Below, in pieces: positions 15,665-39,336 of a stretch of 64,000 bases of DNA. The position numbers and the translations under genes are program-made. The stretch covers positions 1,059,001 through 1,123,000 of the forward strand of contig OX419756.1 in assembly GCA_948567375.1 (NCBI GenBank). Reading direction: 5' to 3'. A model generated the notes under the pieces. It did no database searches. It was given only the letters and a program-made list of their open reading frames with translations, and had not been told where the DNA came from. The stretch's first letter is position 1. Each line of letters opens with the position of its first letter. This DNA comes from Lunularia cruciata (taxonomy: Eukaryota > Streptophyta > Marchantiopsida > Lunulariales > Lunulariaceae).

Positions 15665-16508
15665 TATGCAATTTGTTCTTTGATCCACATACAACAAATG
15701 GTTACAAGGTGGAGTCATATCGGGACCCGATTAAACAAAGTATTATGGGGATGATTATGGCAATGTTCAAACTAGAACAAACGACTTGTGTGAACGTGCA
15801 GTAGGTGCTCTTTTTCCACCAAATGTTTGCAGGAGTGAAGGTGAATTGGGCAAAGTGTTCCCACCAACAAATGAGGCAGATGGTTGTCAATTGGAGGACA
15901 ACTTTGCCTCCATATTATTTTGCACCACATTTCTACCATCTCTCACTTCTACCATTTGCAACACATTTCTACTTTGGGTTGAATTTGCTAACAACCAAGG
16001 AGAGGTGTCACATGGTGTCACATTTTCATCCTAATTTGAGACGGGAAGTGGATGAAGAAGAACAACAATATTGGCACATTTGAGAGCCAATGATGATCAC
16101 TTCTTGAGAATTAGACAACGGGGGATGGAAGAAGTCATAAGCCCAAAGACAAAGAAGCGGAATAAACCCAAAGAAGCAGAGTTGCCTCCAACACAAAGAA
16201 AGGCCCAAAGACTTGTTCTGTAGAGTAAGGAGGTGGTGAAAGAAAAACCTTTAGGAACCGAGTCTGAAGGGAAGAGAGAGTCTAGAGGAGAAGACTCAAA
16301 AGAAGCCAAACTCACATTACAAAGTGGGGAATCCAAAAGTGAGAGTGAGGATGAAGACAAAGTTCAGCAATCGGCTGAAGCAAAAGGAGATGAAGCTTTT
16401 CATGCGATGATTGACTGTATACCAAATCATTGTGTAGCCCTGGTCATGCAAGATGTCATGCCATTTGTAGTGTCGCATCTACATGCTCAGACACTGGAGT
16501 TGCAATGA
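15665..16508 (+). pseudogene. Diverged A-like LTR-ORF fragment (globular domain and hinge)
   Basis: Plus-strand fossil with NGYKVESYRDP-like, LFFHQMFAGVKVNWAKCSHQ and HFYFGLNLLTTKERCHMVSH motifs (frames 15786-16083), then a charged hinge with ESRGEDSKEAKLTLQSGES (16233-16508). It is closer to the A2 protein at 53102-55610 (HQMFAGE..DWAKCLHQ) than to the main family A. After the hinge it diverges from A LTRs: PNHCVALVMQDVMPFVVSHL has no counterpart in them that I can see. It may be another subfamily whose ORF has a different C-terminus. Broken. Confidence 0.65.
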
Positions 16509-19916: not shown

Positions 19917-20307
19917 ACAAGTGTGGTGCCCACATTTTTTGTTCTTTTCAAAATAGAGAAGAAGAAGTGTATAGAGAAGTCAGATTGCACCTGTATGGCC
20001 GAAGAAGGCAAAGAAAAGAGTCTTTGGGATGAAACCCGAAGTAAAGTGACTTCGGGTCATAAGATGAAGTACTCAAAAATGCCCTATCAGCAAACAACCC
20101 AAAGTAAGGAGTCTTTGTATCGAGGGGAGCTCAACCCGAGGCAAAGTCAGTCTAACAACCTTTTGTCGGAGCGAGAAATTCAAGAAAGGACCGTTCAAAA
20201 CCGGCGGCCTATACGCGTGAAGTATAATTGACAGTGACAGGCGCATGCAAGAGGTGTGATTTCTTGGTAGAAACTTGAATTAAAGAGAGATGAAGAAAGC
20301 ATAACTC

Positions 20308-20314
20308 TATAAAA
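20308..20314 (+). promoter_or_regulatory. TATA box of the LTR ORF (solo LTR)
   Basis: TATAAAA in context ACTCTATAAAAATTGGG, 27 bases upstream of ATG 20335. Conserved at the same distance in three other copies on both strands. A transcript starting about 30 bases downstream would begin at or just after the first ATG; the next in-frame ATG is at 20356. Confidence 0.6.
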
Positions 20315-20334
20315 ATTGGGTTCATGACAAAGTA

Positions 20335-22884
20335 ATGTTGAGCAATTTTCCTTCGATGTTGAGAAGTTGTCCTGCAGGTGATTGTGGGAAGGGAAATAGA
20401 GTTGAAGACGCGCTAGTGTGTAAGGGAGAAGTCAAGAGAGTGAAACCAAGAGATAGTGAGAAAGTAGGAGAGATGGGAGGAGGAAAGAAGAACTCTGAAT
20501 TTGCAGTAAGGAATCATGCAATTTGGAGGTTAGACATAATTGCAAGAATCGAAGTCTTGAGCCGACTTCGGATTACATTCTTGGCATGGAATTGGAATGT
20601 TAGTTTTCCAGGTTTCATGACTGAGATTATCAAGACCAAGTGTCTTGATGGCCTCGAGGAAGAGGGGAAGAGAGGAAATCCGGCTCGTTGGACAGAGTTG
20701 GATTGGAGATTAGTGCTCGGGAGAGAAGCAGGCACGGAGCAGGGTGCCACATTCTTGGGTAAGGGAGAAGTGGCAGAAGAAACTCAAGAAGTGAGAGACG
20801 CTTTCTCTTCAAAGAGAACGAAGAACGGATACAAGGTTGAGAGTTACAAGAGGGATTGTGAGTGCTCTCATGGCCATCCTGAAGCTGGAGAGAATGATGT
20901 ATGTGAAGAAAAACCAAGCGGTGTTCTTTCACAAACTGTTTGCAGGAGAACCAATCAATTGGGCAAGGTGCTTCCATAGAAGGACACAAAAAAATGGTGT
21001 GGAATCTGCGGGATAAGTTGCCTCCACATTACATTGTGCCGTTTGCATCACACTTTTACCTTGGGTTGAATTTGCTCAACTCGGCGGAGCAAACTCAAAT
21101 GGTGTCGCATTTCCATCCCGACTTGAGAAGAGAAGTCAATGTAGAGGAGTAGTAGTATATCCTTCAAATCCAAAGCACAGATGAGTACTACAAGAAAACA
21201 AGAAAGAACATAGTGATAGAAGCGAGTACTCCAAAGTCAAAGAAGCGAATTTGGTAGGGCAAAGCCAAAGACAAGACAAAACCTCAGAAGACCAGGAAAG
21301 GAAACCCAAGGCGAGGCATGGTGGTGATCAAGTCAGAAGACAAGGACTCGGAAGGTGAAGCCAAGTGCAAGTCCAAAGACCCGGAATGCAAGGAAGAACC
21401 AGAGCTAATGCTGCAAAGTGGAGATATGAGTAGCGACAACAATGAAGGTGGAGAAATGATGTCGGTGAGGAGGAAGAAGAAGTTCAAGTAGAGCTCAAAC
21501 CAGAGGACAACACAAAGTTGGAGGATGAGATACCTGAGTCCGAAGAGAAGAAGACCGTAATGCAAAGAGGAGTCCGTTCAAGACGTAAGGCGAAGTGTGA
21601 GGCAGGGCCGAGTAAGGCGAAAGAAGAAGTGAATGAAAGCTCGAGAAGTGAGGCGTCAATTCCGATACAAAGACTACAGAGACGAAGGCGAGTATCGGGC
21701 AAACACGAAGTGAGAAGGGAGATTGCAACGTAGGAGGAGGTAGATGCAAGTGATGGAGTGGAGTACCTAGGGAGATTGTGTGCCCATTGCTGATGAAGTT
21801 GGAGCACAGGAAGAAAGAAATGCAGTCGACTTGTCCAGAAGTGAAGATTGTCTTGTAGGTGTTATTGAGATTAGAAGAAGAGAACTCGGAGTTGAAGAAC
21901 ATTATAACCCGAGGTGAGGAGGGAAGTGAAGTACTGTGAGCGGAGGCAGTAGTGAAGACTCAAGTAATTGAAGACTTGAAGAGAGAAGTGATATATCGAG
22001 AGGAGCTTGTTAAGAAGGGTGACATAGCAAGGGAGAGACAAGTAGCAGAGTATGAGATTTTGAAGCAACAATTTGCTGATTCAAGAGTAGAACTTATCCA
22101 TGCTATGGCAAGGGTAGCAGCGAAGGAACAAGAGCTCGATAGAGTCATGGAGAGCGTAGAAGAAAAGAAGCAACTTTGGCAAAGGGAGTTGGCAGTAAAA
22201 TATAGGGAAGAAGAGAGATTATGAGAGTTACTTTGTAATCAAGAGGAGAAGATTGAACATAAGGAGAAGGAGAAAGAAACGGTAAAAGCCGAGTTCAAAG
22301 CGGAGTTGGTAATGTACAAAGAAGATTGGCTTGCAGATTGAGAGCGTGAAAGGAAGATGAGATTGGAGCCATTGAAGGAGATCATAATCAAGATGAATGC
22401 GATGTTGAGTACAAAGGCCAGTATTCGGATTGAAGAAACAAGGTTGCACAAGTTGAAGTTGTTGGTGCAGGAGACAAGGCGAAGACAAGCAAAAGACACA
22501 GATTTGAATGCCTTATTGATCAGTCTAAGAACTCTTGTAGATAGGAAGATATTAGAGGTAGAAGATAATATCGCAATTAGATTAGACTTAGTAAAGTTGG
22601 AGGTAGAAAAACTTCGGAAGGATGTTAGAGCCAAACCCGAAGTAGACGAAGTAGGAGTACAGATGACTTCGGAGTTAGCAATAGAGACATTAGAGAAGAG
22701 TGGGTCGGGAGATAAGGAGTTAGATAAGTTACCCACTAGTGGAATTTCAGATCAGGAAAGAGAATTGCTGGATCTGGTAGAAGAATTAGAAGTTGTGAAA
22801 CCCAAGGATAGAGTAGTAGGAAGTAAAGTAACTTCGGGTTCAGGTTTGAAAGCCAATGACAAAGTAGACATCGGATTGGAGTAG
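20335..22884 (+). pseudogene. LTR ORF in the solo LTR (about 850 codons)
   Basis: Starts MLSNFPSMLRSCPAGDCGKG. The first 170 codons are open through the conserved globular domain (FLAWNWNVSFPGFMTEII, GNPARWTELDWRLVLGREAG, TKNGYKVESYK), continuing near 20990-21150 with PPHYIVPFASHFYLGLNLL and HFHPDLRREV. An acidic and basic hinge spans about 21180-21640. The coiled coil follows (22357-22884: RLHKLKLLVQETRRRQAKDT, SGSGDKELDKLPTSGISDQE), ending in VDIGLE at 22884. It is the same length as the ORFs at 40300-42855 and 11988-14568. There is no transmembrane segment and no known catalytic motif. Broken in several places. Confidence 0.82.
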
Positions 22885-23682
22885 AAACTGATTTGAGATT
22901 TGAAGAGGTAGATATGAAGAGGTGTATTGTCATTTCGGATCTGCAGGTTAGAAGAGTTGTTGTAGAACGGTATAGTTGCTAGAATTGTTGATTGCTTCAC
23001 TACTTAAGAGTGGCATTCACAAGGAAATGTTGTTTAGTGCTCATTATTTTTGAGAATAGATAAAGCAAAGTGCTGTGAAGTAGTGCTCATCGCTTAAGCT
23101 TGATTCAGTATCAGCTTTGTGTTTGTGTTTGTGAGTGCTTGGAGAATTTTGAAGTGCAAGTCAGTGTGCTTGTTAGATGTTGGATTCCGTGGCCTTGATC
23201 TTCATTTTGTGTGTTTGATCTTGAGTGAAGTGCATTCAAAGCAATGCCTTGACAGATTTGAGAGGAATTGTAGTGTTGGTAGTATTTTGCATTTGTGAGT
23301 GCAGTGCGAAGTTGATGTGAAGCAATTTTGATCGAGGAAGTTGTGCCTTTAGTGGAGGGGTGGAACACAATTCTGAAGCAAAGTCGTTTTACAGTGAAGT
23401 GCCATTTTTGGGAGAGCCTAAATCATCACAATCAAGATTTTTTGGAAAGAATTGATGGAGTTGTGATTAAGGAGTGTGAATTTGTGACAAGACTGCGAGT
23501 CAATGCTTGTTACTCTCTTCTGGGTGTGGTTTCTACTTGAGAGATTAAAGACACAACCAAGAAGAACTATAGTGTGACTGTTTGACTTCATATTTGACCA
23601 ATTCTGACTCGTATTTCTACGGGAATGAACTTTACTTACCCAATTACCGCAAAAGTGATATTTGCCGGGTTGTCACAACAAG

Positions 23683-24454
23683 TCAGACTTCCCTAGTCTT
23701 TCACACTATTTGAGGCATTGCAAATGACATCCATGGTTCCTAGACGTCCTAGTGCAAGTGTGGTAGGTTGTGATGAAGTGCATGATGGACTGCCTGCTAG
23801 TCAACTACTTGCTACTACATAGACTGAGTCTAGCATGATGTTGGAGGCGACTCAGCTGATTATGCAGCGACCTTTGTTTTTGGACAATGACATGTTTACA
23901 TTGGGAGTTGACCCAACCCTAGTGTTTCACTTGGCTGCCATGCTATGTGAGAGTAGGGATGATGCGGTTCCTACTACTAGAGCAGAGGTGGTTGGTAGTG
24001 GAGCTGACTTGGTTGAGGAGCATGGGATCCGTTCAGCAACTAGTGGTTTATGGCAGGCAACAACGGCTAGACTGCAAGAGTTGCCAGCTAGACCGGCCTT
24101 TGAGAGAGCAAAGTTTACACTTGGAGTTTTCCTATTGGATAACCATAGGGGGCTTTTCCATTTGGTGGGACCTTCAGGGAAGGTCTATACACCATAGAGA
24201 GTCTTGTTAGACTCTGGTGCGCAGCCCCTTATGTTAGGGAAGGCTGCAATTGTTGGTCTGGAGTAATGAAAGACCAATGTGGAGAGGTGTCCATTCCAAA
24301 TCTAGACATCTCTAGGTGGTAGTTCAACACAATACATCACACGTGGGGAGCTTGTTGTCTAGATTCAGCCTAGTTATCCGATTGATAGCTCAATGGTGAG
24401 AACTCAGGCTATTGCGACAATAGTTGAGTCATATGATGTGCTAGTTGGGGCAGC
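23683..24454 (+). pseudogene. Element B: end of gag and retropepsin-like protease
   Basis: This is the continuation of element B after the solo LTR. An open frame at 23835-24197 (QRPLFLDNDMFTLGVDPTLV, RPAFERAKFTLGVFLLDNHR) leads to LLDSGAQPLMLGKAAIVGLE near 24203-24262, the D-S-G motif of an aspartic protease. The frame ends at VLVGAA at the insertion point of the family C element (24455) and the protein resumes at 32250 (VLYPMGFSIDYWEEITSYRP). Fossil. Confidence 0.7.
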
Positions 24455-25144
24455 TGTGAGCCGGCCTGTCTCTCACCGAGGATGAACTTCTGATGGCTAT
24501 TATGGTAGCGCACCATGGACTAAGAAGGCAAGGAACCCCGACTCCATCATACTCCTCCAAGGCTAATACTCCAAGACTCAAGACATTGCTCACTAGAGAA
24601 CTCAATGAGAGAGAGATAGTTGCAAATGAAAGGATGATGAGTACCTCCTCACCCCTTGTTTATATACTTGTGAAATAGTTACGTACCAAAGTTACTAATT
24701 ACCGTAGTAACTCAAGTTACTAGACTAAAAGTTAAGTAAAGTCAAAAAGTAGAAAGGAATATCCATTCACATGGGCATATTCCCCTAAGCATGTGGTCTT
24801 ATCTTGACCCAACCACTAAGTCAAGGATTCCTTCACATGGGCTATCCTTGGACTAAAGAAGAATCCAAAACAAAAAGGCTTGCGGGCCCAAGAGTTCTCA
24901 ACTCTTTCCTCAAAGCCAAACACCTAAGAATAATACCAAGTCAACACACTAAAATCCAAAATAGTGGTGCTCATCTTTTCTACTTCCTCTAAAGTAAGGT
25001 CCCCTCTATCTTAGCTATGACTAACTTTAGCTAACCATGACTAACATAGAACCATCCTTTCTCTATATAAATAATATCTCTTAAGTACTTGTAATACCAA
25101 GCTAAATATCACAATACCACACACATGCACAAATGGGTGTTACA
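24455..25144 (-). repeat. 3' LTR of the minus-strand family C element
   Basis: 690 bp, TGTGAGCCGGCC...GGGTGTTACA on the plus strand. It contains CTCTATATAAATAATATC near 25062-25080, which reads on the minus strand as a TATATAGAG-type TATA region. Confidence 0.9.
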
Positions 25145-25157
25145 TTTACCCCCGGAC
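25145..25157 (-). other. Polypurine tract of the minus-strand family C element
   Basis: The minus strand reads TAGTCCGGGGGTAAA directly before the 3' LTR start TGTAACACCC. The G-rich purine run GGGGGTAAA abuts the LTR, as expected for the plus-strand primer. Confidence 0.6.
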
Positions 25158-25444
25158 TAAGTTTTCACTTTGTCCTCAAAGTGAAGGTCTCTCTACCTTC
25201 TATGGTAGATTTTCAACTTATCATGGTTCATCCTATCAAAGTGTCTTCCTCCCAACTCCTTGAGATCATAGGTGTAATTGCCCCACACCTTCTCCACTAT
25301 GAAAGGTCCAAAGTACTTAGGCAAAAACTTCTTTTGCACTCTCTTGAATCAAATGGAATCAAACAACATTACACAATCACCTTCCTTGAAGGCCTCCACC
25401 TTCTTCTTGCCTTGCCTCTTGTCATAACTCTCCTTTTGTTACCT

Positions 25445-26155
25445 TTAGGCTTGCTTCACTCGAACCATAGCAACTGCTCTTGCCTCTTCCAACTCCATGA
25501 GTTGATCCTTCCTTGACTTCTCTGCATCACCTCCTTGTGCTTTCTTTAATCTCCTATGAATGCTTTGGAAGGTAGGAAGATCAAAGTGAATAGGTAAGGT
25601 AGACTCAATACCATACACCAATTGAAATGGAGAATATCCGGTGGAAGTCTTCATGGTTGTCCTATACTCCCACAAAACTGCATGAATCCTCTTGTCCCAA
25701 TAATGTTTAGCCCCCTCCATTTCTGCATCTTTGGCCAACATCATGCACAAGGTCTGATTGGTTCTCTCTGCCAAGCCATTGGAATTTGGCTTATAGGATG
25801 TAGTTACTCTATGTGTGATAGAGAAATGTCATAGCATGGCTGTAGTAATGCTTCCTATAAACTCTCCTCCTCTATCAGAAACCAACTCCAAATGGCATCC
25901 AAACCTAGTGATAATGTGTTCATAAAGAAATCTACCCACTTCATCTTCATTCTTGTCCCTCGATGGTCCAGCCTCAACCCACTTGGTAAGGTAATCAGTA
26001 ACTACCACAATGTACCGATTGTTCCTTGGGGTTCTATTGAGAGGACCTACAAAATCAATTCTCCACTTCTCAAAAGGTCCTAGCCATGGAATTGATCTAA
26101 GTGGTGGAGTGGATGTAGACTTTCTAGCAAAAGCTTGACAAACATGACAAGTTTT
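25445..26155 (-). pseudogene. Family C integrase core and C-terminal region
   Basis: Minus-strand integrase following RNase H. Motifs include the lead-in GPFEKWRIDFVGPLNR near 26070-26020 (first catalytic Asp) and LELVSDRGGEF near 25890-25860 (second Asp). NGLAERTNQTLCMMLAKDAE follows at the start of the open segment 25774-25445 (catalytic Glu in GLAER). After these come the TPF/GYSPFQLVYG-type motif and a basic, helical tail (RRLKKAQGGDAEKSRKDQ). D,D,E architecture of a Ty3/Gypsy integrase. Fossil. Confidence 0.8.
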
Positions 26156-27676
26156 TCAATAATCAAGACAATCCTTGAAAATCCCTCTCCAATAGTAACC
26201 TGCATCTAGAATCTTGAAAGCAGTCACCTTTCTTGCAAAGTGTCCTCCCCATACTAAACCTTCATGAAACTCCTTTATGAGTAGGATAGACTCTTCCTTA
26301 CCCACTACTCTTTGAAGTAGACCATCTGCTCCTTGGTGAAAAAGAATATCCTCCACCATTGTGTAAGGTCTAGATCTTGCTGCAAGGGCCTTCCTCTCCC
26401 TAGCATGCATCCCTTCTGGATAGTTACCTCTTGTCACAAAATCCACAATCTCCTTGTACTCCATTGGAACCTCTTGAGTGATTGAGATTGTCATGAGCTC
26501 CTCATCCGGGAAGGAATCATCCACTGGCTCATCTCCATCATGATCATAGGCTCTAGATAACAAATCAGCATTTGCATTTTTCTTTCTTGGCCTATCCTCA
26601 ATGGTGTAGTCATACTCAAACAAGAGTATCATCCACCTTGCTAGTCTCCCTTCAACATTAGGCTTGTTGAAGATGTACTTCAAAGCCTTGTGATCTGTGA
26701 CAATTGTAGCTTTCCTTCCAATCAAGTAGTGCATAAACTTCTTGAGACCAAAGATCACTGCCAACCCTTCTCTCTCCATGACAGAGTAGTTCTTCTCTAC
26801 TGAAGCCATCTGCCTACTAGCATAAGCTATTGGATGATCATGCCCATCTTGGTCTAATTGACTAAGAGTGCATCCTATAGCTACATTAGAAGCATCAGTG
26901 TAGAGGATGAAAGGCTTACTCCAATCAGGTTTAGCAAGAATTGGAGCTACAACAAGGGATTGCTTGAGCTCCTCAAAAGCTTTGAGAGCCTCCTTGTCTT
27001 CCAAAATCACCATGTAATCTACACCCTTCTTCATATAGATGGTCAATGCATAAGCCTTGTTGGAAAATGAGAAGATGAACCTCCTATAGTATCCAACTAT
27101 CCTCAAGAATTGGCGTAACTTTGTCAAGCTTGAAGGAAATGGAAGGTCTGAGATTTTCCTCACCTTCTCAAGATCAACTACTATTCCATCCTCGGAGATG
27201 ATGTGCCCCAAAAGTAGACCTTCTTCACATCCAAAAATGTACTTCTTTGGGTTGAGTGATGCATTTGCCTCATCTAAGCATTGCAAGACTTTGATTAGGT
27301 GCTCAAAGTGCTCCTCCTTGCTTCCATAGACACAAAAGTCATCAATGAAGTCTCTCACAAATTTCCCAATGAAAGGTTCAAATACCTTGTTCATGAACCG
27401 TTCGAATGTGGCTGGAGCATTGCAAAGCCCAAAAGGCATGACCTTGAAAGTGTAAGTTCTCCAAGGTGTGGTGAATGTGGTGAGTTTTTGATGCTCTGGT
27501 GTAATCTTGATTTGGTTATATCCACTATAACCATCTCCAAAACTATACCTCTCATGACCTGCAACCTCCTCCAAGATCTCATCAATGAATCGCAATAGGT
27601 AGTAGTCCTTCTTGGTAACAACATTGAGCTTCTTGTAATCCACACATACCCGAAGCTTGCCATTCTTTTTCTTCAC
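26156..27676 (-). CDS. Family C pol segment: reverse transcriptase, RNase H, integrase zinc finger
   Basis: A 506-codon open frame, the longest uninterrupted one of family C. It begins inside RT (KKKNGKLRVCVDYKKLNVVT) and includes FGDGYSGYNQIKI, FTTPWRTYTFKVMPFGLCNA and the catalytic FIDDFCVYG. RNase H follows (ILYTDASNVAIGCTLSQ, YASRQMASVEKNYSVMERE, TDHKALKYIFNKP), then the start of integrase (GLVWGGHFARKVTAFKILDA, YYWRGIFKDC). The F-I-D-D form and DGYSGYNQ are typical of Athila/Tat elements. It is part of a broken element, so this is a segment rather than a working gene. Confidence 0.85.
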   Translation of the reverse strand: MKKKNGKLRVCVDYKKLNVVTKKDYYLLRFIDEILEEVAGHERYSFGDGYSGYNQIKITPEHQKLTTFTTPWRTYTFKVMPFGLCNAPATFERFMNKVFEPFIGKFVRDFIDDFCVYGSKEEHFEHLIKVLQCLDEANASLNPKKYIFGCEEGLLLGHIISEDGIVVDLEKVRKISDLPFPSSLTKLRQFLRIVGYYRRFIFSFSNKAYALTIYMKKGVDYMVILEDKEALKAFEELKQSLVVAPILAKPDWSKPFILYTDASNVAIGCTLSQLDQDGHDHPIAYASRQMASVEKNYSVMEREGLAVIFGLKKFMHYLIGRKATIVTDHKALKYIFNKPNVEGRLARWMILLFEYDYTIEDRPRKKNANADLLSRAYDHDGDEPVDDSFPDEELMTISITQEVPMEYKEIVDFVTRGNYPEGMHARERKALAARSRPYTMVEDILFHQGADGLLQRVVGKEESILLIKEFHEGLVWGGHFARKVTAFKILDAGYYWRGIFKDCLDY

Positions 27677-29992
27677 AATGCTCTACCTCAAAGATAAATC
27701 CAGCCTCCTTGAGCTTATCAATCTCCTCCTTCACAACCAAAGATATTGGTGGGCTAATGCAATGTTTTTTTTGGCGGATTGGTCTTGCATGTGACTCCAC
27801 CTCTATCTTGTGCTCCTCCAAGGTGACTTCCTTCAAATCCTTGTAACTAAAAGCAAACACATGGATGAACTTGTGGAAAATCTCCTCAAATCTCACCTTC
27901 TCCTCCTTGGTAACATTTGGGCCATACTTGAGGGTAGCTAACCTTCTCTCTACCTCCTCAAGTGTCAATGGTGATTTGTCAGGGTCCTTCAAAACCTTTG
28001 GCTTAGGTGCAAAATCCATAGCACACAAGGGATACACATCTGAATTGGATTCAGATTCATCCTCCTCTGTGGAAGTCTCCTCCTCCATGCTTGTGTCCAC
28101 ACCTAAAGCTCCTTCTTCAGAATCTGATTCCCAATAATCAGAAGAAGGTGTATCTAAATGTGAAGTGTTGGTGGTGTTATTCACAGGAACTGTGACTCTA
28201 TGGTTTGATGGCCCAATCCTCAAGTACCCCTTGTGCCATCGATCAGTTGTGCATGCTGCTCTCAACCATGGCCTCCCAAGAAGTAAGTCATAGCTTGAAT
28301 CCTTCAAGACTTGGAAAGTCATGAGATTTTGAACTCCCATAACTGAAACTACCACTTTATCCATCACCCCTATTGGTCGAACTTGTTGCTTGTTTGCCAT
28401 GCTTACCACAAATGTTGAAGGTCTTGAGGGTATCATACCCAACTTCTTCATCAACCTTTTTAACATGGCATTCACTGCTGATCCTCCATCAACCAATGCA
28501 TCCTTGATGTTGTGACCATTCACTCTCACATCAATCTTGGAGGCATATTCACAAGCCTCCCATGGTGCTGGCTTGGCATCCACCACTCCCATTGATATTG
28601 GAACTTTTGCCTTCTTCTTCCTCTTGCTCCTTGTAGAACTCAAACCACCTCTAAGCTCCTTTCTCAAGGTAGGGTTCAAAGCAATCAATTGGCCCACTGT
28701 GATGTTAGCCTTGTGACTACCAACATCTTCCAGCACATTGTAGTTCCATTGTTGCTTTGAAATCAAGAAATCCTCCATCCCCAACTTCTTCCTTGGAGTC
28801 TTTGTTGTTGATAGTGTTGAGGTGCGAGTGCTCCTAGTAGACATAGGAGTATCCTTGCTTGGAGTAAATCCTTGAGAAGAGTGAACATTCTTTGCAAAAC
28901 GAGCTCTCTTCTTCTCTTGTGCCAAAAGCTCCAAATTAAGACTCTTGGAGTTTGAGCACTCTCCCTTCTCATACTTGCTCTCCACCACATCTATGGATGC
29001 TATCCCCTTACCTTTGTTTGGATTAGGAGCCACTTGGGTTTCACTACAACCCTCTTTCCCTCTATTGGCTCCCTCATAACCCCTTCCTCCATGGTAAGTG
29101 GAATTTGGGCAATTCCTTTGGATATGGCCTCTTCCTCCACAACCAAAACAATTTCTATCATTCAAATTGTTGGCTGGTTGGCCTCCTCTATATGGATAGT
29201 TTCCATGACTCCTAGGCCCTCTCCCTACATTCTGATCCACCTCTCTCTTCTCCCATAGTTGCACCACATTGATCTTGAGATCCGCAAGTTGTTCTGTGAT
29301 GGTTTGAAGTGGATCTTTTGGTAGAGGTGCAAGAACTAGAGCAACCACTACTTGTGGTGCAACCCTTGCCACCAAAGTATCAGAAGTTCCACCATACTTG
29401 TAGCCTTGAGGAGGATGCACAACCTCCTTCACTACCAAATCACTCTCATCTCCTTCCAAACTCTCCTCCATACGAATTGTGATCTTGATAGCCTCAACCT
29501 TGGAAGAAGGTTTCTCATATCTCACCTTGCTTCTAATTGTGGTCTCAACTCTCCCACAAAATTCTTGGTGAGCATGGCCCCTATGCCAATCATTGTAGTC
29601 TCCACATCATCCCTACCCTTCCTCAACACTATGCAAAATCTGGACTCTAACTTTTCCACTCTTTTCACATAGACTCTCACTTTCTCTCCTTCTCCTTGCT
29701 TGAGAAATGTAACCTCACTCATCAATCTCTCATAACTCTCATCAGGAAGAAAGTTCTCAATGAGTGCTGAAGTCAAAGTCTCCCAAGACTCCTCTTCGCC
29801 ATCTCTCCTCTCTCTCTTTTGGTATTCTGACTCATACCATGCAAGTGCTGCATCCTCAAAGAAATTTGGTAATAATGAGGCCCACTCATTCTTCCTCCTC
29901 TCATTTTTTCCTATGCAAGCTCTCTTGAAGTCTCTCACAAAGGCCTCCACATCTTCTCCATCCTTGCAAAAGAAAACCGGAAGTTTCCCCAT
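27582..29992 (-). pseudogene. Family C gag and protease
   Basis: Gag starts at ATG 29992 (MGKLPVFFCKDGEDVEAFVR) with capsid-type motifs (WASLLPNFFEDAALAWYESE, LIENFLPDESYERLMSEV). The 647-codon open frame 27582-29525 continues with the CCHC knuckle CFGCGGRGHIQRNCPN (about 29106-29153). A Ser/Thr-rich linker follows, then the protease motif DALVDGGSAVNAM (about 28464-28502), LLLGRPWL, and the acidic connector leading to RT (HKFIHVFAFSYKDLKEVTLE). The gag-pro-pol order is standard. Fossil. Confidence 0.85.
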
Positions 29993-30224
29993 CTTAGCCT
30001 TTCACTGTCTTTCTTTCTCTCAATTTTTTTTCTCTTTTCTTTTCTCTCACTCTATTTATAATAGAGTATATACATGACTAACAACATCTAAGAATAATCC
30101 ACTCTAGGGAACACAAAAGGTTCAGGTTTCTCCAAGATTTCTATAGTAACATCAGATCCTAGAGTGCATATTAATCTAACTCTCATGGATAGTTTATCCA
30201 TAAGTTGAAAGATTATCTCCATCA

Positions 30225-30697
30225 CTAATCTTGAGAACTAGCTGATGAAGGTGGTAGTATTTCTGTAGCTGTTCTAAGACTCTCTCCAAGATCGTTCACC
30301 AAAGTCTCCAAAAGTGTTTTTACTCCACTACACTCATGTCCTTTTGGAAGTCCTTCCACTCTACAAACCTCACACAACTCCTTGGTCTTAGATCTTCTCC
30401 CTCCTAATCTTGGTGAAGAAGGTCCAACATGCAAACCCAAGTCAAGTAAGCCTCTCCTTCCCTCAATCTCTTGCTCTCAAAGGTCAATGGATATGAACTT
30501 GCCTTATGTCCCTTCTCTCTACATAGAAAGTACTTAGACTCACTCTTTCCTCCAAGTGGTGTAGGTTTTTGGATCCTCTCAACACTCTCTTCAAATTCTA
30601 TTGTAAACTCTCTTTTCCTCAAATCCACCCCTACAATCAACTCAAACCCTTGGAGAACCTTGCATAATCTCAATTTCCACTCTTGATGACCCTCCAT
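30225..30697 (-). pseudogene. Extra zinc-knuckle ORF upstream of gag (family C)
   Basis: Minus-strand counterpart of the intact-looking 157-codon ORF at 35924-36397. Frames show MEGHQEWKLRLCKVLQGFEL, GVDLRKREFTIEFEESVERI, and a CCHC region (CREKGHKASSYPLTFESKRL). The C-terminal part follows (KTKELCEVCRVEGLPKGHEC, then LLETLVNDLGES). This small ORF sits between leader and gag in all three family C copies. Broken here. Confidence 0.7.
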
Positions 30698-31530
30698 GTT
30701 CCCAAGATGAATCTAAACACTCAAACATGCTTTTTGTTGATCTCAAACTCCTCATTCATGAGATCTCCACTCTGCAAAATTGACCCTTCCTCATAATGTC
30801 ACTCAAATCTCCCAACCAGTATGTCACAGTCCTTTGACATTTTGCACACTTCATCAGAACTTTAGGGCGTCCCTCCCCGCAAAATTTCAGATCTTTTCAT
30901 TGACCATTTGGCCTAGACACATTTCTATTCAACACACATATTTCAGATTTGGTCTCAAAACCACCCCCCTCACTTCACAAACTCATTACTCCCTGTGCAA
31001 GAACGATCTCTCTCTAATTTTTGTGACAGCAGGTAGGATACAATGCACTGAAATTTTGTGTAAATTTTCAAGACAATTCACTGAAAATTGAAGAAATGGC
31101 AGACTCTGTACAATTTTCTAGAGAGCATGTAGTTGTGGGAGCACTTTACCCTATCAACTTTCAAAATTTCTAGCCCAGTGCGCATAGTAGATCTCACAAT
31201 AATTTTAAGTGTGATAACTGAAAAATAACCTAAGATATCATGTGTAGAAATTTCAAGTCCAGATCTCAAACTTGAGATTTTGCCCAAAATCACCTTAATC
31301 CCCAAAATCTGCAATCCACCTCACATAATCTCTCCAATTCCTCTCATGTGTACAAGATGTACAAAATCACCTCAAAGACATCATAATGAACTACAGGGTA
31401 TACAAATAGATCTTGGTTCTCTAACATAAGTTCAGCCCTCTCCTCTCCTAATGTTCTCTCCAAGTGAGCTCTCATAGCCTCCTTCTGCCTAATGTAGAAT
31501 TGAATGCGGAACATTATCTTGCCTTCTAGA
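30698..31530 (-). other. Leader of the minus-strand family C element
   Basis: Lies between primer site and extra ORF. It holds a short conserved coding-like segment right after the primer site (about 31515-31350, FYIRQKEAMRAHLERTLGEE-type) also present at 35138 and 59741. The remainder shows no recognisable gene. Confidence 0.55.
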
Positions 31531-31533
31531 GAG

Positions 31534-31551
31534 GTCTCGGCAACGGAACCA
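31534..31551 (-). other. Primer binding site of the minus-strand family C element
   Basis: The minus strand reads TGGTTCCGTTGCCGAGAC, just inside the 5' LTR end at 31556. The same site is at 59703-59720 (TGGTTCCGTTGCCGGGAC). It belongs to the TGGCNCCGTTGCCGGGG type common in Athila/Tat elements. Confidence 0.75.
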
Positions 31552-31555
31552 AAAA

Positions 31556-32247
31556 TGTGAGCCGGCCTATCTCTCTCTCAAGATGAACCTCTGATAGCCA
31601 TTATGGTAGCGCACCATGGACTAAGAAGGCAAGGAACCCCAACTCCATCATACTCCTCCAAGGCTAACACTCCAAGACTCAAGACATTGCTCACTAGAGA
31701 ACTCAATGAGGGAGAGATAATTGCAAATGAAAGGATAATGACTACCTCCTCACCCCTTGTTTATATACTTGTGAAATAGTTACATACCAAAGTTACTTAT
31801 TACCGTAGTAACTCAAGTTACTAGACTAAAAGTCAAGTAAAGTCAAAAAGTAAAAAGGAATATCCATTCACATGGGCATATTCCCCTAAGCATGTGGTCT
31901 TATCTTGACCCAACCACTAAGTCAAGGATTCCTTCACATGGGCTATCTTTGGACTAAAGAAGAATCCAAAACAAAAAGGCTTGCGGGCCCAAGAGTTCTC
32001 AACTCTTTCCTCAAAGCCAAACACCTAGGAATAATACCAAGTCAACACACTAAAATCCAAAATAGTGGTGCTCATCTTTTCTACTTCCTCTAAAGTAAGG
32101 TCCTCTTTATCTTAGCTATGACTAACTTTAGCTAACCATGACTAATATAGAACCATCCTTTATCTCTATATAAATAATATCTCTTAAGTACTTGTAATAC
32201 CAAGCTAAATATCACAATACCACACACATGCACAAATGGGTGTTACA
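31556..32247 (-). repeat. 5' LTR of the minus-strand family C element
   Basis: 692 bp, partner of 24455-25144, with about 23 substitutions and a 2-base gap between them by eye. It ends at ...GGGTGTTACA; element B coding resumes a few bases on. Confidence 0.9.
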
Positions 32248-32707
32248 TAGCAGTGTTATACCCTATGGGTTTCAGCATTGACTATTGGGAGGAGATAACC
32301 TCTTATAGACCAGGTTGGTAGTCTGGTGAGGGACGGGTATGTTGCCTACCAGTACCCTTAAGTAGTGGCAATCTTGGCTCACTAAAGTCCGGTACCATGG
32401 CAACATCAGTTTTAGCTTTCAATGGTGCAACTACTTGGCCTGGTGACTTGTTGGAGAGGAATGCCCATGCAAAGGATACTCCAATACCAGAGGAGATCAC
32501 TCGGATTTGGAGTACAAGTGGGATTGTTCCATCCACCTTGGATGTTACATTGTGGAAATAAAGGAGGCATTGCAGCAGCATGTAGATCAGTTGGTGTAAT
32601 AGGCTTGGAGTGGAGCATTTGTACCATTGGCAGATGAGTGTGAGGATGAGCTTCCAGAGTTGATTACTTTGACACCTTTGGATACCACACTCATTGCTTG
32701 GCAATAT
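32248..32707 (+). pseudogene. Element B: region between protease and methyltransferase
   Basis: Resumes with VLYPMGFSIDYWEEITSYRP (about 32253-32312), the end of the protease-like region. It then runs as a linker with EEITRIWSTSGIVPSTLDVT-type and acidic ADECEDELPELITLTPLD segments immediately before methyltransferase motif I. No catalytic motif of its own. Fossil. Confidence 0.6.
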
Positions 32708-33680
32708 CCAATAGAGGAGATATGTCTATTGGAGTTGTTTGGTGGGATTAGCACCGGACTAACTGCAATATTACAGGCGGGTATATGAGTATAGAGGTAC
32801 TTGTATGTAGAGAGAGATGAGACTGCTAGGTGAGTCTCTCTACATCATGTGGTACACTTGGCTTATTGGTATCCAGAGTTATTATTGATGTTAGCAATCA
32901 AAGGTTATTAGAAGGCCCTAGCAACAAACATTTCCTTATTGGGGGCACATGATCTAGAGAGATATGGACCTATTCACTTGGTGATTTCTAGATGGCCATG
33001 TTAGGGACATACACGTGCTGGTAGAGGTTTGGGTCTTCACAATCCTTATTCTGGTGTGTTTTGGGAGATGTTACGGATATTACAACATCTCTAGGTTCAT
33101 AAGTCCATTTCTCCTGCTTACTTTTTGGAGAACAGTCCTTTGATGGGTGATTCTTGCACCAAAGAGGTGGCAAGTACACATCAGGTCCATTCTTAGATGG
33201 GACCTATTGTATTGTTAGATGCAACCAAAGTGGCATCACGGGCTCATTGTCTTTGTCTTTGGTAGACAAACCTCTTACCCAGAGAGGTTCTACAACGTGC
33301 TTGTGATGGGATTCAACGACTTGACTACATCCTTGTTGATGATATCTTGGATGTTGGATGTCAATCTCAGGCAGTGGTAGTGGCTAATAGGTCACCTATG
33401 TCAGAGGTGAACCTAGTTGGACAGCCTATAGCCGCATTTCCCACACTCATGAGTTTCCCAAGCTCTCATGCTTTTTGAGAGGGAGGACCTAGACTTGTTT
33501 GGGACTCACAGTTACAGCAGTTGGTGGAGCTCAACGCTGATGAGAGAGAGCGGGTGATGCACTGGTATTACCGCTGTTCCAATAGTGTCAGAGGCATCCA
33601 TGCATTAGGTGTTAGATCAAGCTATGGACCTAAACTGTTTGACCTGGATTGTGACCCTTGGCTTGGCAGAGCAACATAGG
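32708..33680 (+). pseudogene. C5 cytosine DNA methyltransferase domain (DNMT3/DRM-like) inside element B
   Basis: Seen in the sequence: motif I LLELFGGISTGLTAIL (32726-32773), the SAM-binding loop. A motif II-like YVERDETAR lies near 32803. YGPIHLVI leads to WPC at 32993-33001, then GHTRAGRGLGL and FWEMLRILQHL (motif IV, catalytic Pro-Cys). LENSPLMGDS at 33125-33154 contains the Glu-Asn of motif VI. MGPIVLLDATKVASRAH near 33197-33247 is motif VIII-like. DERERVM lies at 33539-33559 and the motif X-like LDQAMDLNCLTWIV at about 33612-33653. Known of the family: the order I, IV, VI, VIII, X with PC and EN is diagnostic for C5 methyltransferases, and the IDA...S...R block after motif VI resembles DNMT3/DRM. 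It lies between protease and RT of element B, so it was probably a polyprotein domain. Inference: it could have methylated element or host DNA. Heavily broken. A host gene is unlikely, because flanking retroelement coding is collinear on both sides. Confidence 0.8.
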
Positions 33681-34398
33681 ATGTGCTTGATAGGCATCAC
33701 CACTCAAACACTTGTGAGCCATGTGCCTATCGAGATGATTCAGGCTCATGCTAGGGGCGATAGACCGATTGGACATGGTATTCTTGGGACACAACCAATA
33801 GCTACTAAGGAGAGTGGTCTACTTGGAGTCCATCCAGGCAAGCATGGGCTACTTGGATTACACCCTTGGTCCACTTGGGATGTAGCTAGTGGACGTGTGG
33901 AGCTTGCAGCCAGAGTGGAGGGAGTTTTTCACACACAGGTTGGGACCTCTAGTGGTTGGGGGCATGACACTATTGCTTCCAAGTGCCCAATGAAGCAGCT
34001 AGTCACTACGTCTTCCACTCCTACTACAGTTACAAAAGATACTTGGACCCAAGCTTATAGGAGAGGAAAGACAGAGCGTTTGGAGGTTCTTAAGGAGCCA
34101 CACAAGTTTTTTTGCCTTCAATATGAAGGATTTGAGTGCTCTAAATGGACTTGATACATAGATTGAGTTGACTAGCAATGCACCACGTTTCCGGCGTCCA
34201 TATCAATATAGTGAGATGGAGAGGACATTGATTTAGAGCTAGAGTAATGACCTTTTGAGACTTGTTTGGTGGAGATCTCACATGGAGAGTATGCATCAGC
34301 AACAGTGATGCCAGCCAAGAATGATATGCATGGCAACTACATAGATAGGCGGATGTGTGGAGATTACTTTCCTATCAACCAACATATCAAGGCTGATC
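33681..34398 (+). pseudogene. Element B: linker and start of reverse transcriptase
   Basis: After the methyltransferase comes a linker (HVPIEMIQAHARGDRPIGHG; open frame to 34154), then the typical lead-in of a Ty3/Gypsy RT. This consists of APRFRRPYQYSEMERTLI (about 34180), EISHGEYASATVMPAKNDMH (about 34274-34333) and RMCGDYFPINQ (about 34351-34383). The next element (family C) inserted at 34399 inside RT, after IKADL. The rest of B's pol is not in the window. Fossil. Confidence 0.75.
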
Positions 34399-35089
34399 TG
34401 TAATGCTCATTTGTGCATGTGTGTGGTATTGTGATATTTAGCTTGGTATTACAAGTACTTGAGAGATATTATTTATATAGAGATAAAGTATGGTTCTACA
34501 TAAGTCATGATTAGCTAGAGTTAGTAATAGCTAAGATAGAGGGGACCTTACTTTAGAGGAAGTAGAAAAGATGAGCACCACTATTTTGGATTCTAGTGTG
34601 TTGACTTGGTATTATTCCTAAGTGTTTAGCTTTGAGGAAAGAATTGAGAACTCTTGGGCCCGCAAGCCTTTTTGTTTTGGATTTTTCTCTAGTCCAAGGA
34701 TAGCCCATGTGAAGGAATCCTTGACTTAGTGGTTGGCTCAAGATAAGATCACATGCTAGTGGAATATGCCCATGTGAATGGATATTTCTTTATACTTTTT
34801 GACTTTACTTGACTTTTAGTCTAGTAACTTGAGTTACTAAGGTAATTAGTAACTTTGGTGCATAAATATTTCACAAGTATATAAACAAGGGGTGAGGAGG
34901 TAGTCATAATCCTTTCATTTGCAACTATCTCTCTCTCATTGAGTTCTCTAATGAGCAATGTCTTGAGTCTTGGAGTGTTAGCCTTGGAGGAGTATGATGG
35001 AGTTGGGGTTCCTTGCCTTCTTAGTCCATGGTGCACTACCATAATAGCCCTAAGAGGTTCATCCTGAGTGAGAGACAAGCCGGCTCACA
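34399..35089 (+). repeat. 5' LTR of the plus-strand family C element (34.4 kb)
   Basis: 691 bp from TGTAATGCTCATTTG to GCCGGCTCACA. Contains ATTATTTATATAGAGATAAAG near 34470, the TATA-like region shared with the other family C LTRs. Followed four bases later by the primer site. Confidence 0.88.
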
Positions 35090-35923
35090 TTTTTGGTTCC
35101 ACTGTCAAGACCTCTCTAGAAGGCAAGATAATATTACGTGTTCAATTCTACATTAGGTAGAAGGAGGCTATGAGAGTTCACTTGGAGTGAACATTGGGAG
35201 AGGAGAGGGCTGAACTTATGTAAGAGAACCAAGATCCATTTGCTTACCTTGTAGTTCATTATGATGTCTTTGAGGTGATTTTGTACATCTTATACACATG
35301 AAAGGATTTGGAGAGATTGTGTGAGGTGGATTAAAGATTTTGGGTATTAAGGTGATTTTGGGCAAAATCTCAAGTTTGAGATCTGGACTTGAAATTTCTA
35401 CACATGATAGCTTGGGTTATCTTTCAGTTAGCACTTCAAATTATTGTGAGAGGTACTATATGCACTGGGCTTGAATTTTTGAAAGTTGATAGGGTAAACT
35501 GCTCCTGCAACTGCATGCTCTCTGGAAAATTGTACAAAGTCTATCATTTCTTCAATTTTTGGTGAATTGTCCTGAAAATTTCCAAGAAAATTCAATCCAT
35601 TGTACCCTACTTGTCAAAAACCTTAGAGAGAGATCATTCTTTTACTGAGAGTTATGAGTTTTTGAAATGAAGGGGGTGGTTTTCAGACCAAATCTGAAAT
35701 ATGTGTGCTGAATAGAAAGGTGTCTAGGCCAAATGGCTCAATGAAAAAATCTGAAATTTTGCAAGGAGGGATGCTATGGAGTTGTGATCAGTGGACTGTG
35801 ACATACTGGTTGGGAGATTTGAGTGACATTGTGAGGAAGGGTCAATTTTGCAGAGTGGAGATCTCATGCATGAGGAGTTTGAGAGCAACAACATGTTTGA
35901 GTGTTTAGATTCATCTTGGGAAC

Positions 35924-36397
35924 ATGGAAGGTCATCAAGAGTGGAAATTGAGACTATGCAAGGTTCTCCAAGGGTTTAAGGTGATTGTAGGGGTGGATTT
36001 GAGGAAAATAGAGTTTACAATAGAATTTGAAGAGAGTGTTGAGAGGATCCAAAAACCTATGCCACTTGGAGGAAAGAGTGAGTCTAAGTGCTTTCTATGT
36101 GGAGAGAAAGGACATAAGGCAAGCTCATGTCCATTGAAATTTGAGAGCAAGAGATTGAGGAAAAAGAGAGGCTTACTTGACTTGAGTCTGCATGTTGGAC
36201 CCTCTTCACCAAGATTGGGAGGAAGAAGATCTAAGACCAAGGAGTTGTATGAGGTTTGTGGAGTGGAAGGACTTCCAAAAGGACATGAGTGTAGTGGAGT
36301 AAAAGCACTTTTGGAGACTTTGGTGAAGGATCTTGGAGAGAGTCTTAATACAGCTACAGAAATACTATCACCTTCATCAGCTAGTTCTCAAGATTAG
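35924..36397 (+). CDS. Extra zinc-knuckle ORF of family C (157 codons, open)
   Basis: The best copy of the small ORF that precedes gag. The N-terminal half (GVDLRKIEFTIEFEESVERI) has no match I recognise. The centre has a perfect CCHC knuckle, CFLCGEKGHKASSCP (C-X2-C-X4-H-X4-C). A second Cys/His cluster, CGVEGLPKGHEC, lies about 50 residues later, and the C-terminus is Ser-rich (SPSSASSQD). It starts at ATG 35924 and ends about 240 bases before gag. It is conserved in all three family C elements at the same place. A nucleic-acid-binding accessory protein is a reasonable inference; function unknown. Ogre-type Tat elements are known to have an additional ORF before gag, though I cannot say these are related. 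Confidence 0.75.
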   Translation: MEGHQEWKLRLCKVLQGFKVIVGVDLRKIEFTIEFEESVERIQKPMPLGGKSESKCFLCGEKGHKASSCPLKFESKRLRKKRGLLDLSLHVGPSSPRLGGRRSKTKELYEVCGVEGLPKGHECSGVKALLETLVKDLGESLNTATEILSPSSASSQD

Positions 36398-36630
36398 TGA
36401 TGGAGATAATCTTTCAACTTATGGATAAACTATCCATGAGAGTTTGATTAATATGCACTTTAGGATTTGATATTGCTATAGAAATCTTGGAGCAACCTGA
36501 ACCTTTTGTGTTCCCTAGGGTGGATTATTCTCAAATTTTTTTAGTCATGTACATACTCAATTGGTTATAGAGTGAGAGAAAGAAAAGAGGAAAAAAATTG
36601 AGAGAAAAGAAAGATAGTGAGGGATTAAGA

Positions 36631-38468
36631 TGAGGAAACTTCCAATTTTCTTTGGCAAGGATGGAGAACATGTGGAGGCCTTTGTGAGAGACTTCAAGAG
36701 AGCTTGCATATGAAACAATGAGAGGAGGAAGAATGAGTGTGCCTCATTATTACCAGAATTTCTTTGAGGATATAGTACTTACATGGTATGAGTTAGAATA
36801 CCCAAAGAGAGAGGAGAGATGGGCAAGAAGAGTCTTAGGAGACTTTGACTTCAGAACTCATTGAGAACTCTCTTCTTGATGAGAGTTATGAGAGAGATTG
36901 ATGAGTGAGGTTACCTTTCTCAAGCAAGGAGATGGAGAGAAAGTGAGGGTCTATGTGGAAAGAGTGGAAAAGTTAGAGTCTAGATTACGCATAGTGTTGA
37001 GGAAGAGTGGGGATGACATGGAGACTACTATCATTGGCATAGGGGAAATGTTCACCAAGAATTTTGTGGGAAGGTTGAGACCACAAATTAGAAGCAAGGT
37101 GAGATATGAGAAACCTTCTTCCAAGGTTGAAGCTACCAAGATTGCAATTCGTATGGAGGAGAGTTTGGAAGGGGATGAGGGTGATTTGGTGGTGAAGGAG
37201 GTTGTGCATCCTCCTCAAAGCTACAAGTATGGTGGAACTTCTGATACTTTGGTGACAAGGGCTGCACCACAAGTAGTAGTTGCTCCAGCTCTTGCACCTC
37301 CACCAAAGGATCCACTCCAAACCATCATAAAACAACTTGCGGGTCTCAAGATCAATGTGGTGCAACTATGGGAGAAGAGAAAGGTGGATCAAAATGTAGG
37401 GAGAGGGTCTAGGAGTTATGGAAATTATTCATATAGAGGAGGCCAACCAGCCAACAATTTCAATGATAGAAATTGTTTTGGTTGTGGAGGAAGAGACCAT
37501 ATCCAAAGGAATTGCTCAAATTCCACTTACTATGGAGGAAGGGGTTATAAGGGAGCCAATAGAGGGAAAGAGGGAGGTAGTGAAACCCAAGTGGCTCCTA
37601 ATCCAAAAAAAGGTAAGGGGATAGCATCCATAGATGTGGTAGAGAGCAAGTATGAGAAGGGAGAGCGCTTTAACTCCAAGAGTCTTAATTTAGAGCTTTT
37701 GGCACAAGAGAAGAAGAGAGCTCGTTTTGCCGAGGATGTTCACTCTTTTCAAGGATTTACTCCAAACAAGGATACTCCTATGTCTACTAGGAGCACTCAC
37801 ACCTCAACACCATCAACAAAAAAGACTCCAAGGAAGAAGATGGGGATAGAGGATTTCTTGGTTTCAAAACAACAATGGAACTACAATGTGTTGGAAGATG
37901 TTGGTAGTCATAAGGCTAACATCGCAATGGGCCAAATGATTGCTTTGAACCCTACCTTGAGAGGGAGCTTAGAGGTGGTTTGAGTTCTACAAGGAGCAAG
38001 AGGAAGAAGAAGGCAAAAGCTCTAGTATCAATGGAGGTGGTGGATGCCAATCCAACACCATAGGAGCCTTGTGAATATGCTTCCAAGATTGATGTGAGAG
38101 TGAATGGTCACAACATCAAGGATGCATTGGTTGATGGAGGATCAGCAATGAAGGCCATGTCTGAAAGGTTGATGAAGAAGTTGGGTATGATACCCTCAAG
38201 ACCTTCAACATTTGTGGTGAGCATGGCAAACAAGCAACAAGTTTGACCAATAGGGATGATGGATAAAGTGGTAGTTTCAGTTATGGGAGTTCAAAATCTC
38301 ATGACTTTCCAAGTCTTGAAGGATTCAAGCTATGACTTACTTCTTGGAAGGCCATGGTTGAGAGAAGCACGCACAACTGATAGATGGCACAAAGGGTACT
38401 TGAGGATTGGGTCATCAAACCATAGAGTCACAGTTCCTATGACTAACATCACCAACACCTTACATTGA
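36631..38468 (+). pseudogene. Gag and protease of the plus-strand family C element
   Basis: Begins MRKLPIFFGKDGE-like at 36631 and includes a 361-codon open frame at 36898-37983. That frame contains the gag region (FLKQGDGEKVRVYVERVEKL), the CCHC knuckle CFGCGGRDHIQRNC (about 37474-37515) and EDFLVSKQQWNYNVLEDVG. Protease motif DALVDGGSAM lies near 38122-38151 and LLLGRPWL near 38340-38363. Same layout as 27582-29992. Fossil with several breaks. Confidence 0.8.
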
Positions 38469-38548
38469 GATACACCATCTTTTGATTATTGCGAATCAGA
38501 TTCTAAAGAAGGAGCTTTCGGTGTGGACACAAGCATGGAGGGGAGACT

Positions 38549-39336
38549 TTGATGGAGGAGGATGAATCTGAACCTGATTCAGATGTGTATCCTTTGTGTG
38601 CTATGGATTTTGCACCTAAGCTAGAGGTTAAGAATAACCTAAATAAATCACCATTGACACTTGAGGAGATAGAGAGAAGGTTAGCTACCCTCAAGTATGG
38701 CCCACATGTTATGAAGGAGGAGAAGGTGAGATTTGAGGAGATTTTCCACAAGTTCATCCATGTGTTTGCTTTCAGTTACAAGGATTTGAAGGAAGTCACC
38801 TTGGAGGAGCACAAGATAGAGGTGGTGTCACATGCAAGACCAATCCGCCAAAAGCAACGTTGCATTAGCCCACCAATATCTTTGGTTATGAAGGAGGAGA
38901 TTGATAAGCTCAAGGAGGCCAGATTTATCTTTGAGGTGAGGAATTCAGAATGTGTGTCTCCAATTGTCATCGTGAAGAAAAAGAATGGCAAGCTTTGGGT
39001 ATGTGTGGATTACAAGAAGCTCAATGTTGTTACCAAGAAGGACTACTATTGATTGCCATTCATTGATGAGATCTTGGAGGAGGTTGCAGGTCATGAGAAG
39101 TACAGTTTTGGAGATGGTTATAGTGATATAGCCAAATCAAGATTGCACTAGAGCATCAACAACTCACTACATTCACCACACCTTGGGGAACTTATGATTT
39201 CAAGGTCATGTGTTTTGGGCTTTGCAATGCTCCAGCCATATTCCAATGGTTCATGACAAGGTATTTGAACCTTTCATTGGGAAGTTTGTGAGAGACTTCA
39301 TTGATGACTTTTGTGTCTTTGGAACCAAGGAGGAGT
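38549..39336 (+). pseudogene. Reverse transcriptase start of the plus-strand family C element
   Basis: 38549-39052 is open: acidic connector, then FKFIHVFAFSYKDL-like sequence, EVRNSECVSPIVIVKKKNGK and VCVDYKKLNVVTKKDYY. RT continues to FIDDFCVFG near 39298-39324, where the element is interrupted. Fossil. Confidence 0.8.

Follow-up and report, generated by a model that had tools for sequence, protein, structure and literature searches.

A methyltransferase domain within an interrupted Ty3/Gypsy element

The window, a stretch of 64,000 nucleotides of the Lunularia cruciata genome (contig positions 1059001-1123000), contains on its plus strand a Ty3/Gypsy retrotransposon that encodes a C5 cytosine methyltransferase (MTase). 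The element is one copy in pieces and a member of a large family. It was mapped with bryophyte proteins (tblastn) and with the same-genome copies L012, L014 and L026 (86-89% identity). Three insertions interrupt this copy, which is dead and retains only the 5' LTR, gag, the protease (PR), the MTase and the start of the reverse transcriptase (RT) (Table 1).

Table 1 Pieces of the MTase element and of the sequences inserted into it, in window coordinates
Feature	Position	Strand	Evidence and remarks
5' LTR of MTase element	16451..16903	+	Aligns with 3' LTRs of L012, L014 and L026 at 86-87%
gag, frames broken	18457..19921	+	Up to 71% identity to Marchantia P0057/P0058 (tblastn); same-genome copies 86%
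Inserted repeat 1, foreign to the element	19922..23677		Target duplication ACAAG at 19917-19921 and 23678-23682
gag-protease linker and aspartic protease	23678..24454	+	DSGAQPLM at 24210-24233
Inserted LTR retrotransposon 2, foreign to the element	24455..32247	-	LTRs 24455-25144 and 31556-32247, ~96% alike
Protease end (YPMGF, at 32259) and linker	32248..32566	+	Protein and same-genome copy mapping
Linker end and DNMT3-type C5 cytosine methyltransferase	32567..33664	+	11 in-frame stops
MTase end and C-terminal tail, frame shifted after decay	33543..33992	+	Protein and same-genome copy mapping
RT start (PYQYSEMER, RMCGDY)	34024..34398	+	Two frames, 47-74% identity to P0061/P0071
Inserted LTR retrotransposon 3, foreign to the element	34399..39335	+	~4.9 kb present, then itself interrupted

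A preliminary description of this DNA had placed a C5-MTase at this position inside a Ty3/Gypsy element, and both the MTase frame and its relatives (E 4e-120) bear this out; neither of the results that the description named as a refutation was obtained. Its series of motifs from I to X stands in part: motifs I, IV, VI and VIII follow one another in a single frame, and the IX/X end lies in another. Its collinear flanks of protease and RT are in the right order, but they are not intact neighbors of the MTase. The protease motif LLDSGAQPLML is found at ~24.21 kb, 8 kb upstream of the MTase, because younger insertions split the element three times, with insert 2 lying in this gap; the RT is cut off where insert 3 begins.

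Repeats similar to insert 1 occur at other places in the window. Insert 2 is bordered by a 4-bp target duplication with one mismatch. Inserts 2 and 3 (aligned at 27311-32253 and 34393-39335) belong to one family, lie head to head around the MTase piece and are ~91% alike over 5 kb; a third copy of this LTR family begins at 59022. Past the RT start, the RT and integrase matches in the window are all more distant (26-39% identity), and we assign them to other elements. Between protease and RT, other Gypsy elements in the window lack an MTase (e.g., frame 27582-29606). Elsewhere, positions 51321-52008 hold a tandem array with a period of ~114 bases within a C- and T-rich stretch.

Two of the 11 stop codons in the window MTase frame fall in the linker immediately ahead of the MTase proper, and it is these 11 stops that mark the copy as dead. 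Nine of them stand at alignment columns that are mostly Gln, Arg or Trp in relatives. Compared with 20 same-genome copies, 43 of the 59 differences private to the window MTase are C>T or G>A, an excess that indicates decay as expected for methylated, silenced DNA. The stop that follows the MTase tail in other copies is gone from this one.

The methyltransferase is of the DNMT3 type

The identity of the MTase is certain because of its relatives, while the window copy by itself is weak. A PF00145 search, the check proposed in the preliminary description, stayed under the cut-off for the window copy alone (E 0.29). DNMT3A matches the window copy alone at E 3.6e-5. A search with the window MTase found 56 proteins at E <= 1e-3, the best with 57% identity over 99% (E 4e-120), and a profile of eight diverse relatives matches DNMT3A at E 1.2e-20. 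DNMT3 is the top match in both sequence and predicted fold. We conclude that the domain is DNMT3-type.

Motifs I, IV, VI, VIII and IX/X occur in the ordinary order in the family. An origin from plant DRM is thus ruled out, since the rearranged order of those enzymes (VI-X before I-IV) is absent. DNMT1, MET1 and CMT were not listed at E <= 10 with the eight-relative profile, nor were DNMT1 and CMT in a later comparison, which in both cases shows no more than their absence from the list. The 11 family frames scanned gave no match to a BAH or chromo domain, and P0001 had no match among viral contigs.

The catalytic motifs are intact in family members, unlike the stop-interrupted window copy. Across 72 aligned relatives, the motif IV Cys is present in all 56 rows with a letter at that position, the motif VI Asn in 46 of 47 and the motif VIII His in 44 of 44. 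PCQG, LENV, AHR.R and LFGGI are each intact in 19 of 20 same-genome copies.

A large family in the same genome shares one domain order

The genome searched for further copies comprises 565.8 Mb in 74 contigs, ~558 Mb of it in eight contigs of 60-85 Mb from which loci were fetched. A PF00145 profile search gave at least 123 scored matches out of 2161 candidates. From these, 20 copies (L009-L028) were fetched for their long open frames (783-1428 aa), a choice that biases the set toward intact copies. All 20 encode, at regular spacing, PR, MTase, RT and RNase H (RH), integrase (IN) and a PHD finger, and 19 also have gag, so that the order gag, protease, methyltransferase, RT, for which a same-genome search had been suggested, recurs. 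L018 is the one without gag and has a second RT/IN match upstream.

In L026, Pfam identifies DNA_methylase in the first frame and RT, RNase H, integrase and the PHD finger (E 7e-10) in the second. The PHD finger occupies residues 992-1036 at the C terminus of the integrase frame; it is also found in the related proteins P0123 and P0072. Most fetched stretches cut into the 5' LTR. In 16 of the 20 copies the fetched stretch partly includes an LTR pair. Over 216-454 bases these pairs are 90.9-100% identical (median 98.1%), a sign of recent insertion. With gag, protease, RT, RNase H and integrase in this order between LTRs, the family is a Ty3/Gypsy LTR retrotransposon.

An RT search that ignored the MTase gave the same arrangement. 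The genome was searched with a Marchantia RT and the best 150 of 38054 candidates were scored; the first 21 listed, minus one already fetched, were inspected 1.05-1.75 kb upstream. The MTase lies upstream of the RT at all 20 loci, with WPCQGH intact at 17 and the piece seen free of stops at 11. Protease and RT adjoin directly at none of these 20 loci, contrary to the alternative layout considered in the preliminary description. Since the list is saturated by the nearest copies, more distant relatives may lack the MTase.

An exact pattern for the MTase/RT junction occurs at 724 places in the genome (349 + 375; control 0). The pattern has 27 set positions, two of them purine, and leaves the three stop bases free, and it thus counts exact junctions rather than complete or intact elements. 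Compared with Marchantia P0058, the family is 73% identical in the MTase and 57% over the whole first frame; its second frame shares 65% identity with P0061 and 68% with P0123.

A conserved UAG separates two in-phase frames

In open-frame members, gag-PR-MTase and RT-RH-IN-PHD form two frames that are in phase and parted by one stop. Six copies have frames of at least 250 aa meeting at the junction (L014, L015, L016, L018, L025 and L026); all six are in phase with exactly one stop. The junction codon is TAG in the 20 long-frame copies and in 23 of 24 others, the remaining one (L037) having no such site. The context TAG-CAR-YYA is kept in 41 of these 43 junctions and two depart from it. Among 100 listed of the 724 genomic places, the triplet is TAG in 97, TAA in 2 and TTG in 1. 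Apart from the junction, no MTase stop position is common to more than 15 of 44 copies.

UAG-CAR-YYA is the type I leaky stop signal of tobamoviruses (in the parts of PMC3542737 and PMC5382211 consulted). Judged by this TMV-like context, the junction stop is probably leaky. As the 43 junctions are related by descent, they demonstrate retention and not repeated origin.

The relatives from other species are known as proteins, in which stop codons are not visible. For 52 that have motif X, the distance from this motif to the end of the first frame is 85-92 residues in 12, 98 in three, 107 in five and 122-128 in six; the remaining ones differ or are cut short.

Many copies are broken and the methyltransferase is under selection

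In 13 of 44 copies (L005-L048) the MTase, 316 codons long, has neither a stop nor a gapped codon. These include 11 of the 20 long-frame copies, two of the 20 in L029-L048, which were drawn from the remaining, mostly shorter frames, and none of the four in L005-L008. The 59 MTase stops in the 44 copies fall on 23 codons. One codon, number 255 of the L026 frame, is affected in 15 copies and another in six. The recurrent stop reflects either a subfamily that spread with an inherited stop or a mutation hot spot.

Both recurrent stops are present in L010, whose LTR stretches are nevertheless 100% alike over 315 bases. L010 probably moved recently with its own broken MTase, perhaps aided in trans. 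This argues against the MTase being strictly required in cis; help from intact copies would account for it, as would an MTase that can be dispensed with.

From the 20 long-frame copies, which are related, 190 non-independent pairs give a pooled pN/pS of 0.29 for PR, 0.37 for the MTase, 0.26 for RT-RH, 0.50 for IN and 0.29 for the PHD finger. The linker (0.51) and the MTase tail (0.57) are higher, as is gag (0.62), a value that is unreliable because the gag frame of the reference copy is broken and its alignment contains 254 stops. These ratios show that the MTase is under purifying selection. The window MTase compared with the copies has a pN/pS of ~0.54, a mix of selected ancestry and neutral decay.

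Related elements in bryophytes and the host methyltransferase genes

The protease precedes the MTase in all 33 of the 157 related proteins in which both were detected, which, with the long-frame copies and the RT loci, supports placing the MTase after the protease and ahead of RT. Marchantia, Sphagnum and Calypogeia have relatives whose protein also contains protease or gag, with 13 Marchantia polyproteins listed. In a tree, the decayed window row groups with Calypogeia (96/85) within a 33-row clade that includes all named bryophyte rows (100/97). When four same-genome copies are added, the window joins them in a single group (SH-aLRT 100) that sits beside Calypogeia (81). By themselves, these trees point to a bryophyte, perhaps a liverwort, as host.

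The MTase precedes RT in five of six related proteins with both, and the exception is P0072 (1993 aa). This protein and P0097 (523 aa) form a separate clade. In P0072 the MTase stands between RNase H and integrase; in P0097 it precedes integrase. The RT, integrase and MTase of P0072 are all 39-45% identical to L026, and one old lineage thus seems to carry the MTase domain in two positions. We also read in P0072 a PHD finger and a C-terminal second methyltransferase-like stretch with an SPPF motif. Another retrotransposon-type MTase (P0079, on a 2410-base contig) is filed under a bacterial metagenome-assembled genome (Candidatus Obscuribacterales) and is probably plant contamination.

The genome also has methyltransferase genes of its own (L001-L004), by motif reading two DNMT3-type genes with introns (L001 and L004), one DRM-type and one CMT/MET-type. 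The DRM-type gene, L002, shows the rearranged motif order. As to a possible origin of the element MTase from the host's DNMT3 gene, its identity to the exons of that gene is only 33% over 57 residues.

Comparison with known elements

Chromoviruses are Gypsy elements with an integrase chromodomain. They share with the present family a chromatin-reader domain at the integrase C terminus, which here is a PHD finger and co-occurs with a methylation writer. The plant Copia element SIRE1 has a stop of the kind described here, placed before an env-like frame. Tobamoviruses have the same stop and context, and make a short product and a longer readthrough product with the polymerase (according to the available text of PMC3542737 and PMC5382211); in the present family, an LTR retrotransposon, the leaky-type stop separates the MTase from RT.

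A DNMT3-carrying Gypsy element is already known. KnitGypsy-Dnmt3 of the alga Klebsormidium nitens is an LTR Gypsy element with a DNMT3-type domain (de Mendoza et al. 2018, PMC5890265), and the statement in the preliminary description that algae harbor such retrotransposons is correct. The sections of that paper at hand describe further likenesses, namely a non-rearranged domain, a streptophyte host and purifying selection (there Ka/Ks < 0.2). They also describe an MTase within the Pol polyprotein, DIRS-like repeats and fewer copies than in Symbiodinium, whereas the present MTase ends the Gag-protease frame before a conserved UAG, in an element with plain LTRs of ~450 bp, hundreds of junction copies and a PHD finger. 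This distinction follows the description in the text, where the domain order within the polyprotein is not stated. KnitGypsy-Dnmt3 gave no methylation in yeast, a result its authors call inconclusive.

SymbioDIRS-Dnmt3 and SymbioLINE-Dnmt of Symbiodinium are also retrotransposons that encode their own DNMT, and the DIRS versions methylate CG in yeast (PMC5890265, in part). They belong to other retrotransposon classes and are stated there to be independent acquisitions. A 2025 survey of many eukaryotes (PMC12344493, as far as its text was available) places DNMT3 members in 'LTR Copia' and DIRS elements and cites the streptophyte and dinoflagellate cases.

No bryophyte Gypsy-DNMT element is reported in the CC-licensed PMC literature searched, as represented by the available portions of PMC5890265, PMC9033089, PMC8616336, PMC6180176, PMC10952607, PMC12344493, PMC11244446, PMC6453930, PMC3542737, PMC5009743 and PMC5382211, although the trees and supplements of PMC12344493 may hold bryophyte sequences. 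The same literature, in the portions available, mentions neither a Gag-side MTase nor a leaky UAG that parts MTase from RT, and a search for readthrough in plant LTR elements gave one review whose accessible text has no such case. As far as searched, five features are new: bryophytes as hosts, a copy number in the hundreds, an MTase on the Gag side, the leaky-type stop and the PHD finger.

Possible roles of the methyltransferase

Cytosine methylation silences plant retrotransposons, which makes an element that keeps a de novo methyltransferase under selection a puzzle. The explanation we lean toward, tentatively and as somewhat short of probable, is that the MTase is made at the Gag level before a leaky UAG, packed into the particle and directed at the element's own DNA, with integration guided by the PHD finger. 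It builds on the domains observed and their order, on a stop that is conserved along with its context, on an MTase under purifying selection, and on a DNMT3 sequence and predicted fold with catalytic motifs. Most translation would end at the UAG, so that the MTase would be produced with Gag and enter the particle, from which it could act for copies with a broken MTase of their own as well. RT and integrase would come from a minority of readthrough. In the particle or just after integration, the MTase may methylate the new DNA of the element de novo, and this DNA would then resemble resident heterochromatin and not foreign DNA. By reading a histone mark, the integrase PHD finger could select or fix the site. 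CG methylation by SymbioDIRS in yeast indicates that retrotransposon DNMT3 domains can methylate CG (PMC5890265, in part). Against this explanation, the MTase is broken in most copies examined (31/44), L010 seems to have moved recently with a broken one, other Gypsy elements in the window lack the domain at this place, and KnitGypsy-Dnmt3, the nearest studied kind, gave no methylation in yeast, an outcome that its authors regard as inconclusive (same source, in part).

The same data accommodate other roles. Freed from Gag by the protease, the MTase could instead act on the host side, methylating chromatin around targets or disturbing host silencing marks. The DNMT3-, DRM- and CMT/MET-type genes of this genome offer partners for such competition and the integrase-linked PHD finger suggests work on chromatin, but production together with Gag suggests the particle first, and we regard this role as unlikely. 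Self-restraint, an idea raised by de Mendoza et al. (in the part of PMC5890265 available), would have the MTase methylate new copies so that early silencing limits damage to the host and the family stays tolerated. The predominance of C>T and G>A changes in the dead window MTase resembles that of heavily methylated silenced DNA; host methylation alone would yield the same decay, however, and the high LTR identity points to recent activity, and we consider this idea improbable as well.

Several observations would also suit a domain that has ceased to matter for methylation: where retained, it would bind nucleic acids or serve as a structural part of Gag, or else a family able to move without it would be losing it. 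These are its place on the Gag side and the 31 of 44 copies with an MTase stop or gap, 15 of them at one codon and one of these, L010, with identical LTR stretches. The pooled pN/pS of the MTase and the retention of its catalytic Cys, Asn and His in relatives and of four motifs in nearly all copies speak against it and make it quite doubtful. That the domain is a chance resemblance, or a host gene fragment beside an unrelated element, might be thought from the Pfam score of the window copy and from a position between two inserted LTR elements. We reject this, and give it practically no weight, given the relatives with protease or gag on the same protein, the 20 long-frame copies and the MTase at every same-genome RT locus inspected.

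Extending the particle-based explanation, we speculate that a bryophyte-wide Gypsy lineage with a DNMT3 writer at the Gag level and a PHD reader pre-methylates its particle cDNA, including that of sister copies with a broken enzyme. New copies would be born with the host heterochromatin mark, the family could multiply to hundreds of copies, and part of plant DNA methylation would be element-made. We hold this wider scenario to be rather unlikely as a whole.

As far as searched, retrotransposon DNMTs have been documented until now in one charophyte alga and in dinoflagellates. Their occurrence in Marchantia, Sphagnum and Calypogeia and in the large family of the present genome extends them to land plants with genetic tools, and the Gag-side position and conserved UAG allow direct tests of when, where and on which targets the enzyme acts.
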